43,840 nucleotides of DNA from an uncultured SAR86 cluster bacterium (GTDB lineage: Bacteria; Pseudomonadota; Gammaproteobacteria; Magnimaribacterales; D2472), in NCBI GenBank assembly GCA_902516285.1, contig CABXXT010000010.1, positions 1-43,840 of the forward strand, written 5' to 3'. Of this stretch, positions 38,868 to 42,781 are shown one piece after another. Under the pieces are notes generated by a model, which was not told the DNA's origin, made no database searches, and saw nothing but the letters and a program-made list of their open reading frames with translations. The position numbers were made by a program, and so were the translations under genes. Positions within the stretch are counted from its first letter, which is position 1. Every line of letters starts with the position of its first letter.

Positions 38868-40532
<1,665 letters not shown>

Positions 40533-40555
40533 TTTTATGATTTAATTAAAAAATT

Positions 40556-40580
40556 TGGGGCATATAGCCCCATTTTTTTT
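40556..40580 (+). terminator. Rho-independent terminator of groESL
   Basis: A six-base-pair stem TGGGGC / GCCCCA with a five-base loop (ATATA) runs directly into eight T. It is the only textbook intrinsic terminator I see in the window and separates groESL from the sodN unit. Confidence 0.93.
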
Positions 40581-40581
40581 G

Positions 40582-40587
40582 TATAAT
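40582..40587 (+). promoter_or_regulatory. Candidate -10 for the sodN unit
   Basis: TATAAT preceded by TG immediately after the terminator T-tract; expected start near 40594, leaving a leader of about 27 nt that carries a GGAG ribosome site before the ATG at 40621. No -35 is evident because that region is the terminator stem. Confidence 0.4.
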
Positions 40588-40620
40588 TATAATAAATAAA
40601 ATATTTTTGGAGTTATGTAA

Positions 40621-40797
40621 ATGAAACTTTTCTACTTTGTGCCATTTGTTTCAGTAAATTTATTCGCTCATATAAATAATACTTTCCATTATCATTTCAT
40701 TGACACATTAGTTGAGTTAATACTCTATTTTTCATATATATTTATTTGTTTAACAGTATTTTTTCTTATAAAAGCTATATATAGGAGATTTGTATGA
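40621..40797 (+). CDS. 58-residue membrane protein coupled to sodN
   Basis: A short frame from ATG 40621 to TGA 40795-40797, with GGAG about 8 nt upstream. It overlaps the sodN start by the ATGA pattern seen throughout this genome, which is good evidence that it is translated. The protein begins with a signal-like segment (MKLFYFVPFVSVNLFA), then a His-containing stretch AHINNTFHYHFID (H17, H23, H25), one long hydrophobic helix (about 31-51) and a basic end KAIYRRFV, so probably a small inner-membrane protein. I do not recognise a family. Its position suggests a link with nickel supply or SodN processing; this is inference. It could also be only a translational leader for sodN. Confidence 0.62.
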   Translation: MKLFYFVPFVSVNLFAHINNTFHYHFIDTLVELILYFSYIFICLTVFFLIKAIYRRFV

Positions 40798-41258
40798 AAA
40801 TTAAAGATTTAAAAGCTCATTGTGATATTCCATGTGCAGTTTATGATCCTTACATTGCTCAATTTGCATCATTAAGCTTAATCAGAATTGTTGATCTTAT
40901 TGACGAATTGCCAGATGAATTAACAAAGAAAGATGATTTAGCAAAGCTATCCCGCTTAGTGCAACAAAAAGAGGAACATGCTGCAGAAGTTAAAGATGCA
41001 GTTAGAGTTATATGGGGAGATTATTTTAAAGGCCCTCAAATGGAAAAATTTCCCGAAATTCACGAATTGACACATTCTATAATGCTTGATGCTTCGAAAT
41101 GTAAACAGCATATAGATAGAGATGCTGCAGAGGATTTGTTTAATAAGGTAAATAGATTTGCTGAAATTTTTTGGTCAACCAAAGATATTGAAACTGAACT
41201 AAAAATCTCACCTAATCCTCCAATGTTAAAGCTTGTTCTGCCAGTATTGAGTGATTAA
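40794..41258 (+). CDS. sodN: Nickel superoxide dismutase
   Basis: Dismutates superoxide at a nickel site formed by the processed N-terminus. 154 residues. The nickel hook is HCDIPCAVYDPY: after removal of the eight-residue propeptide MKIKDLKA, His9 becomes residue 1, with C10 and C14 as thiolate ligands and Y17 in the second shell. The four-helix body follows. The Gly that usually follows the second Cys is Ala here. The AGGAGA ribosome site at 40783-40788 lies inside the small upstream gene. No signal peptide, so the enzyme is cytoplasmic. The next gene encodes its maturation protease. Confidence 0.96.
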   Translation: MKIKDLKAHCDIPCAVYDPYIAQFASLSLIRIVDLIDELPDELTKKDDLAKLSRLVQQKEEHAAEVKDAVRVIWGDYFKGPQMEKFPEIHELTHSIMLDASKCKQHIDRDAAEDLFNKVNRFAEIFWSTKDIETELKISPNPPMLKLVLPVLSD

Positions 41259-41526
41259 AATATATAGAGTAAAAGGTGAAAGCATGTCACCTGAGATTCA
41301 AAATAACTCTTATGTCGTTACAAGGAAATTTAAAAGCTATAACCCCAACGATATTGTAGCTATTAATAATGATAAAATCGGGTTGGTAATTAAAAGAATT
41401 AAAGACATTGAAGATAATTATCTTACTGTTGAGAGTATTAATAAGCAATATAACTCAATCACAAGTGAAATGAAGTTTTTATATGACGATATTTTAGGAA
41501 AAGTTATCTTAAGATTATTTAATTAG
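41251..41526 (+). CDS. sodX: Nickel superoxide dismutase maturation protease SodX
   Basis: Small S26 signal-peptidase-like enzyme that removes the SodN propeptide so that His1 can bind nickel. 91 residues from a GTG start. Probable catalytic Ser is S11 in VKGESMSPEI and Lys K48 in GLVIKRIKD; the fold is the minimal catalytic core without membrane anchor. It overlaps sodN by 8 nt and, at its end, corB on the other strand by 8 nt. Confidence 0.9.
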   Translation: MIKIYRVKGESMSPEIQNNSYVVTRKFKSYNPNDIVAINNDKIGLVIKRIKDIEDNYLTVESINKQYNSITSEMKFLYDDILGKVILRLFN

Positions 41527-42781
41527 ATTTATTAATTTTAATTTTAGATATTAAATTTTCATCAAGTTCTAAAATTTCAAATCTATATGAATCGATTTCT
41601 AAACATAGGTTTGCTTGGGGGATTTGATCCAAATATTCTGTTATTAGTCCGTTAATAGTTTTAGAATTATCTTCAGGAATAGCCCAGTTTAAATAGTTAT
41701 TTAGGTCTCTTATTTTTGAATTGCCATCAGTTAAAATAGATCCATCTTTTAACTTTATAAACTCTTTTTCAAGCTCCTCTTTGTCACCTCCAAATTTACC
41801 TGTGATTTCTTTAAAAATATCTTCAACAGATATCAGACCCTCAATTTCACCATATTCGTCTACTACAAGACCAATTGATTCATTATTTGCTAAAAACTCC
41901 CGTAATTGCTTCATTAGTAATGTGGATTGGGACACGAAATAAGTTTTATGAAGAATTTTTTTGAAATTTGAAGCATTACCTTGTTCATAATTCTCTAAAA
42001 ATGAATGAGAATCTTTTAAATGTAAAATACCAATCATATTATCAATTGAGTCCTGAAACACAGGCAGTCTGGTATATTCAGTAGATTCAATGATGTTTGT
42101 TGCTTTTTCATAATCATCATTTATGTCAATTCCTATTATCTCTGCAGTAGGTATCATTATGTCCTCAACTATCAATTCCTCCATTCCTAAAACAGAGGAG
42201 AGCATCTTCCTATATTGTTTAGGAATTAAATCACCAGACTCTTCAAGCAAAGTTCTTAATTCTTCAGTATTAAGATTGTCATTTGTATTTGCATCTTTTG
42301 CATCTAGACTAAATATTTTTAAAATCAATCTACTTAAAAAATTAGTAAAAAATATAAGAGGTTTAAATATATATACAAGAATATTTAAAATAAATGATGA
42401 TTTTGTTGCTACACTCTCAGGTTTTATTGCGGCAATTGTTTTTGGAGTAATTTCGGAGAATATTAAAATTATTATGGTTAATATAATTGACCCTATTAAA
42501 ACGTTACCACCAAAATAATTAATCATAATTATTGTCACTATTGCTGAGGCTAAAATATTTGCAAAGTTATTTCCTACTAATATAGCTGACAATAATTGAT
42601 CAGGTTTTTTTAGAAGATTGAGCGCTCTTTTTGCGCTACCTTTTGATTTTTTAGATAAATTCTTAAGCTTAATTTTATTAGCTGCCATCATTCCTGTTTC
42701 AGAGCCAGAAAAAAAGCCACTAAGAATTAGTAAGAAAATAAGTGTTGAAAATAAAAAAATTAAAGATGGATCTTCTTGCAT
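41519..42781 (-). CDS. corB: CNNM/CorB family transporter (DUF21-CBS-CorC_HlyC)
   Basis: Membrane protein of the CNNM/CorB family, linked to Mg2+ transport or sensing. About 420 residues from the ATG at 42779-42781. N-terminal DUF21 domain (about 10-190, four helices, starting FFSGSETGMMAANKIKLKNL), two CBS domains (about 200-320, with EDIMIPTAEIIGIDIN and SIGLVVDEYGEIEGLISVEDI), then the CorC_HlyC domain. An in-frame ATG at 42832 lies inside corE and would add a tail before the first helix; AGGA at 42787-42790 favours 42781. Adjacent to corE as in E. coli (yfjD-ypjD). Confidence 0.9.
   Translation of the reverse strand: MQEDPSLIFLFSTLIFLLILSGFFSGSETGMMAANKIKLKNLSKKSKGSAKRALNLLKKPDQLLSAILVGNNFANILASAIVTIIMINYFGGNVLIGSIILTIIILIFSEITPKTIAAIKPESVATKSSFILNILVYIFKPLIFFTNFLSRLILKIFSLDAKDANTNDNLNTEELRTLLEESGDLIPKQYRKMLSSVLGMEELIVEDIMIPTAEIIGIDINDDYEKATNIIESTEYTRLPVFQDSIDNMIGILHLKDSHSFLENYEQGNASNFKKILHKTYFVSQSTLLMKQLREFLANNESIGLVVDEYGEIEGLISVEDIFKEITGKFGGDKEELEKEFIKLKDGSILTDGNSKIRDLNNYLNWAIPEDNSKTINGLITEYLDQIPQANLCLEIDSYRFEILELDENLISKIKINKSN

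Follow-up and report, generated by a model that had tools for sequence, protein, structure and literature searches.

The sodN-sodX pair of marine cyanobacteria is accompanied by a third gene, for the UreH-type protein SodT, which is proposed to supply nickel to the superoxide dismutase (PMC4284471, PMC10119275). HupE permeases carry the motif HPxxGxDH in their first helix (PMC7689651), and domains with an N-terminal histidine that are fused to HupE/UreJ-2 permeases bind both copper and nickel in vitro, the best domain studied preferring copper over nickel (PMC12537917). One survey lists 62 bacteria that have nickel-dependent proteins and lack a known nickel transporter (PMC2667541).

The locus described here also has a third gene adjoining sodN and sodX, for a 58-residue microprotein of which we found no description in the literature searched (mostly outside subscription journals). 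SodT (UreH/NicO) is a predicted six-helix permease, whereas the microprotein has one helix. With HupE/UreJ proteins (PF04955) the microprotein shares a signal peptide, an A|HxGH start, a histidine just before the first helix and operon slots (after ureG and, in Novosphingobium, before sodN), but these permeases have approximately six helices and HPxxGxDH, a motif absent from our microprotein alignments. The anglerases Ang-1 and Ang-2 (PF13795; PMC12537917) likewise have a predicted periplasm-facing N-terminal histidine and are proposed to catch metal; unlike the microprotein, which is the product of a separate gene, they are folded beta-sandwich domains fused to a HupE/UreJ-2 permease. No such domain is present in the 58 residues, for which AlphaFold2 models helices only.

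The gene upstream of sodN and its product

The window (by which we mean the whole stretch of DNA analysed, 43,840 nucleotides) comes from an uncultured bacterium of SAR86, an abundant ocean lineage. Genes and sites near its end run in the order groEL, terminator-like site, microprotein gene, sodN and sodX candidate, with the following features.

40556..40582, + strand: terminator-like stem-loop and T run, 3' of groEL and 5' of the microprotein-sodN-sodX unit (consensus scan, sequence)
40609..40612, + strand: GGAG ending 8 nt 5' of the ATG of the microprotein gene, its presumed ribosome site
40621..40797, + strand: microprotein gene, ATG start, 58 codons (58 aa)
40621..40668, + strand: predicted signal peptide, residues 1-16
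40669..40695, + strand: histidine cluster, residues 17-25 (H17, H23, H25), presumed periplasmic metal site
40717..40770, + strand: transmembrane helix core, residues 33-50 (hydropathy; within the AlphaFold2 helix 21-57)
40771..40794, + strand: basic C-terminal tail, KAIYRRFV
40783..40787, + strand: AGGAG, presumed sodN ribosome site, inside the microprotein gene
40794..41258, + strand: sodN, nickel superoxide dismutase precursor (PF09055, E 4.9e-45; TIGR02753, E 5e-44, over cut-off)
41251..41526, + strand: sodX candidate, S24-type maturation peptidase (PF00717, Peptidase_S24, E 2.3e-12, over cut-off)

A preliminary description of this DNA had pointed to a 58-residue frame with its own ribosome site, overlapping sodN and encoding a signal-like N-terminus, three histidines, one long helix and a basic tail. 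Every one of these elements is present (the N-terminus is hydrophobic), and the microprotein's TGA shares ATGA at 40794-40797 with the ATG of sodN. That overlap by itself suggests that translation of the two genes may be coupled; sodN also has its own AGGAG. The predicted SodN begins with the propeptide MKIKDLKA followed by HCDIPC, and the sodX candidate scored 27.3 bits against NCBIfam TIGR02754, below the cut-off of 63.25. The consensus scan, which placed the stem of the terminator-like site after groEL at 40556-40572, reported no sigma-70-like site directly 5' of the microprotein gene, and Rfam returned no match at E 0.1 across 40400-41600.

The common plan of the proteins collected here is a signal peptide, an A|H junction, a histidine cluster, one helix and a basic tail. 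Alanine precedes the first histidine in 57/60 distinct proteins and serine in 3/60; note that the motif-based selection itself required this pattern, seen in 60/60. All 60 have HxH inside their first 16 mature residues, and 58 have a positively charged tail. The sequence GH[D/N]H is found in 28 of 29 distinct non-SAR86 proteins versus 0 of 31 from SAR86. Signal cleavage would fall between A16 and H17, less securely in SAR86 because the signal peptide there is short (16 residues). An AlphaFold2 model built from 12 SAR86 sequences (mean pLDDT 79.5, pTM 0.43) has a confident helix at residues 21-57, with pLDDT blocks of 95-97 in residues 31-50, and a weak helix at 6-16. Nowhere along the helix do the alignments show a conserved polar or histidine residue that might line a pore. 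Neither Pfam nor NCBIfam gave a family over cut-off, either for the window protein or for three or four other versions (non-SAR86 or from elsewhere in the SAR86 order).

Conservation beside propeptide-type sodN

Among 100 SAR86 genomes (own genome counted), 32 have sodN, and the microprotein adjoins it in 31 of these 32 and in none of the 68 genomes without sodN (Fisher p 5e-25, a guide only, the genomes being related). A 42-row profile gave strong matches (E <=1.2e-7) in 31/100 genomes, each next to sodN, and weak matches (E 0.001-0.01) in 5/68 genomes without sodN, all in longer frames (150-323 aa). Because this profile (A1) includes 25 SAR86 rows, most of the SAR86 positives had served in its training, which holds for none of the 68 negatives. 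The only sodN-bearing SAR86 genome without the microprotein (G085) has a gap of ~210 nt, from which the frame is absent. The gene overlaps sodN in 19/30 SAR86 loci.

The check for synonymous-biased substitution proposed in the preliminary description came out in favour of a protein-coding gene, with dN/dS of 0.08-0.39 in the 17 pairs, of 19 compared, that yielded a value (the pairs have genomes in common and are not independent). In the same 17 pairs sodN gave 0.01-0.13, so the microprotein is constrained, though more loosely than SodN. H17, H23 and H25 are invariant among 12 aligned SAR86 proteins, and H17 and H23 throughout the 42-row alignment. The frame is therefore more than chance, being kept in 31/32 sodN-bearing genomes with low dN/dS and invariant histidines; a broken frame or lost histidines in these close relatives, which the preliminary description had named as evidence against the gene, is not what we found.

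From gammaproteobacteria other than SAR86 we collected 32 loci that encode a propeptide-type SodN (called by the motif HC.[VIL]PC..YDP), and 30 of them have a same-slot counterpart. These loci came from searches for sodN at the level of the class (369 genomes, 10 with sodN), the phylum (349 genomes, 6 with sodN) and one order (247 genomes, 29 with sodN, 28 over cut-off), with two further named loci added from close matches; the order of G255 comprised two genomes only. Note that because the slot scan accepted only ORFs that end close to sodN and contain [A/S]H with a further H after it, conservation of H17 and one later histidine is partly built in by selection, whereas HxH, the tail and dN/dS were not required. 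One exception (L046, from the Oceanospirillaceae genome G997) has the slot without the microprotein, and its genome has no profile match; in the other (L049, G295) the slot is taken by a protein with this layout but with arginine replacing the first histidine, a natural variant that would be useful for probing what that residue does. Together with G085, these are the gammaproteobacterial sodN genomes that lack an intact copy.

The frame is thus kept in 61 of the 64 sodN loci counted (SAR86 and other gammaproteobacteria). Outside SAR86 it overlaps sodN in 6/30 loci and is separated by a gap in 24/30; over all non-overlapping loci the gap is 0-24 nt. By motif, sodX is present in 26/30 fetched SAR86 loci and 29/32 others, one miss being a contig end. 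The conserved third partner of sodN and sodX that had been suggested from the window therefore finds support both in close SAR86 relatives and in other gammaproteobacteria, and the microprotein is a member of the NiSOD operon by its conserved linkage to propeptide-type sodN. Six loci (L054, L055, L056, L082, L083, L084) encode a SodN (motif HCQxPCGIYDD) that carries a signal peptide, apparently an exported form, and all six have neither the sodX motif nor the microprotein. A genome from outside the Gammaproteobacteria (G732) has sodN and sodX without the microprotein, and none was seen upstream of sodN in Nonomuraea (L191). Phages gave no sodN match; two plasmid records have sodN, and two microprotein queries found no match on plasmids.

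A TPR-like gene of ~135-165 residues lies directly upstream of the microprotein gene at some loci (L174:5209-5655, L177:6456-6956, L178:6243-6713 and L045) and directly upstream of sodN in L046. Some of these sodN-locus genes match DUF2753 in Pfam below cut-off.

Look-alikes beside other nickel and cobalt systems

A first profile, trained on sodN-linked rows only, was applied to 35 genomes chosen by hand. Away from sodN it detected three short proteins, of which one follows ureG (G473), another a hydrogenase maturation protease (G479) and the third hypA/hypE (G469). A second profile that included those three was searched against 340 genomes from the class, scoring up to 18 candidates in each, and gave at least 12 short-frame (<=110 aa) matches beyond three sodN-linked rows, ten of them intact. 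Six intact look-alikes lie directly before ureD (G142, G282, G401, G108, G248, G337), four of these following an ABC ATPase; two come immediately after the large subunit of a [NiFe]-hydrogenase (G235, G172), and in G320 the look-alike follows hypE. Altogether, of the 13 intact short homologues examined outside sodN loci, all 13 belong to a urease, a [NiFe]-hydrogenase or a hyp locus. The two matches that were dropped had in-frame stops (G342) or, at 37 aa, lacked a helix (G154). Longer matches to the second profile include full HupE/UreJ proteins, some of them after ureG; the gene of the window itself, G015 and G383 went undetected by it. (Because this profile is weighted toward the A|HxGH start, recent descent from HupE within those operons would fit equally.) A motif scan and a single-query HupE tblastn, which could miss divergent proteins, found no full-length HupE or NicO in the 4.5-13 kb flanking the copies at urease, hydrogenase and hyp loci.

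The tenth intact match, a second copy in G142 (L162:1872-2239), is in a cluster with ureG, beside a 58-aa fragment that resembles the beginning of a NicO nickel transporter. The 37-aa frame of G154 (L163:1563-1670) consists of a signal peptide and GSGHDHGHSHA and lies ~160 nt after a HupE-like gene.

A Pfam family with the microprotein's length and layout (DUF6732, PF20506: signal peptide, A|HxGH, GHxH, one helix) adjoins the cobalt-handling gene CbiX and differs from the microprotein in having an acidic far C-terminus. In the fetched stretches, CbiX is present in 23 of 24 DUF6732 loci over cut-off (L088, L089, L109-L129), the exception being the weakest (L130), and it lies directly downstream in all 21 of these 23 loci for which the small frame could be delimited; a Pfam check at a single locus confirmed CbiX. 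Two of the three rows that score lowest or fall short of the cut-off lack CbiX, namely L130 (over cut-off) and L131 (under). The latter, an alphaproteobacterial match to the DUF6732 model, follows a hydrogenase large subunit. No paper naming DUF6732 was found in the literature searched; the family might be among the predicted cobalt transporters CbtC-CbtG that are named in PMC2667541. Against the DUF6732 model the window protein gave no match, one non-SAR86 version gave E 0.96 (9.8 bits versus 27), and mature profiles of DUF6732 and the non-SAR86 sodN version aligned at 58.6% over 4 columns.

Comparison of the second profile with four HupE sequences (two of them nearly identical), signals kept, gave 96.9% over 39 columns. 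The best PDB match of the microprotein profile is a G8P chain of a filamentous phage (E 1.5e-5), which shares a signal, a helix and a basic tail; a phage coat protein was rejected as an identity. Since that match illustrates that an E of ~1e-5 from such short profiles proves little, signals were removed before further profile comparison. The non-SAR86 sodN version then gave 96.0% (40 columns) against the urease/hydrogenase versions and 94.2% (19 columns) against the N-terminus of HupE, six shuffled controls giving <=0.3%; the urease/hydrogenase versions matched HupE at 43%. The SAR86 version, by contrast, gave 1.7% against the other sodN version and 0.2% against HupE. A signal peptide followed by a HupE-like histidine-rich start is thus a property of the non-SAR86 sodN version, and the SAR86 versions join the group by slot and synteny, layout and histidine pattern, not by sequence score.

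Pfam models for HupE/UreJ (PF04955, PF13795) did not match the window protein, and the best of four non-SAR86 versions reached E 0.026 (14.5 bits versus 23). NicO (PF03824) did not match it either, the G295 variant reaching E 0.014 (15.1 bits versus 27.7). By the tests made on these sequences, then, the microprotein would not be classed as a HupE/UreJ, an anglerase or a DUF6732 member. A permease does occur in the same slot elsewhere: in Novosphingobium sp. RL4, a 197-aa HupE (PF04955, E 8.3e-47) that shares the microprotein-type N-terminus is encoded immediately 5' of sodN and a frame resembling sodX. Because HupE in Novosphingobium and SodT in cyanobacteria occupy the third place beside sodN, the microprotein fills the slot of a nickel transporter.

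The window's own genome encodes, on another contig, a 316-aa HupE_UreJ_2 with a histidine-bearing start after its presumed signal peptide. HupE_UreJ_2, the sole permease family for which we searched in SAR86, is present in 20/32 genomes with sodN versus 52/68 without (many of these genomes are incomplete). As a partner it is available and not specific to genomes with sodN.

A proposed role in nickel capture

We suggest, with a probability of roughly one half (0.52), that the microprotein is a minimal single-pass inner-membrane protein that captures nickel through its N-terminal histidine and serves SodN. The signal peptide would direct the protein to the inner membrane and its removal at A16/H17 would leave a mature protein starting with histidine, whose free N-terminus and side chain could bind Ni(II) on the periplasmic face together with H23 and H25. 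Helix and basic tail would anchor the microprotein N-out, C-in. Nickel collected at the membrane would be handed to a permease, plausibly the genome's own unlinked HupE_UreJ_2, and, once delivered, could load the co-transcribed SodN after SodX exposes the N-terminal histidine of SodN. Such a mode of working would resemble that of the anglerase domains on HupE/UreJ-2 (PMC12537917), albeit without a folded domain and from a separate gene. Of the two roles offered in the preliminary description, nickel acquisition stands by association, the associations being the urease, [NiFe]-hydrogenase, hyp and cobaltochelatase neighbours and the HupE in the Novosphingobium slot, whereas no support was found for quality control of SodN. 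Several observations count against nickel capture. In particular, signal-free comparisons join the SAR86 proteins neither to the other sodN version nor to HupE, the window's own gene and G015 escaped the second profile, and the SAR86 signal peptide is short. Moreover, G085, G997, G295, G732 and Nonomuraea manage without an intact copy, HupE_UreJ_2 is no commoner in SAR86 genomes with sodN than in those without, and the best domain studied in PMC12537917 preferred copper.

Several copies of the microprotein might instead form a histidine-lined pore and so act as a minimal nickel importer that replaces the six-helix permease. We regard this as unlikely: the apparent lack of full-length HupE or NicO near the copies in urease, hydrogenase and hyp loci would favour it, as would the true permease that takes the third place beside sodN and sodX in Novosphingobium and, as reported in PMC4284471, in cyanobacteria (SodT), yet the helix offers no conserved residue to line a pore, the genome has its unlinked HupE_UreJ_2, and the motif scan and one-query tblastn can miss divergent permeases. 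A role in protection or support, in which the microprotein would buffer toxic copper or nickel at the membrane or tether SodN or SodX nearby, is equally unlikely. A histidine-rich periplasmic stretch could bind several metals, the related domain in PMC12537917 bound copper better than nickel, and a cytoplasmic partner could bind the basic tail; however, such a role leaves unexplained why proteins of this plan recur next to urease, hydrogenase, hyp and cbiX genes, and likewise the HupE in the slot.

The remaining readings fare worse against selection, layout and recurrence, which together rule out a chance ORF. A leader peptide that controls sodN through its own translation would agree with the gene's first position in the unit and with the ATGA overlap, which is found in 19/30 SAR86 loci, but it is highly improbable, and we rejected it, since the amino acids are under selection, 24/30 non-SAR86 loci have a gap of 1-24 nt and no overlap, and homologues sit after ureG, hydrogenase large subunits and hyp genes. 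A decaying fragment of a HupE permease is scarcely credible and was rejected on the same three grounds: the N-terminus does match HupE, and truncation is a likely origin, but dN/dS is low in 17/19 pairs, the frame is kept in 61/64 loci and the protein has a basic tail of its own. Truncation of a HupE may thus describe where the gene came from, not its present state.

Returning to nickel capture, what is observed is that proteins of this plan recur beside each nickel or cobalt system met (NiSOD, urease, [NiFe]-hydrogenase, hyp and cobaltochelatase). It is possible, if on the whole doubtful, that they constitute an unrecognised class of single-pass microproteins that stands in for a six-helix permease at such loci, either by feeding an unlinked permease or as the smallest importer. 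If so, the class would help to explain those bacteria that have nickel enzymes and no recognised nickel transporter. Genes this small become readable through the metal enzymes beside them, and a conserved third gene of the operon provides a specific candidate for the nickel supply of NiSOD in marine heterotrophs.
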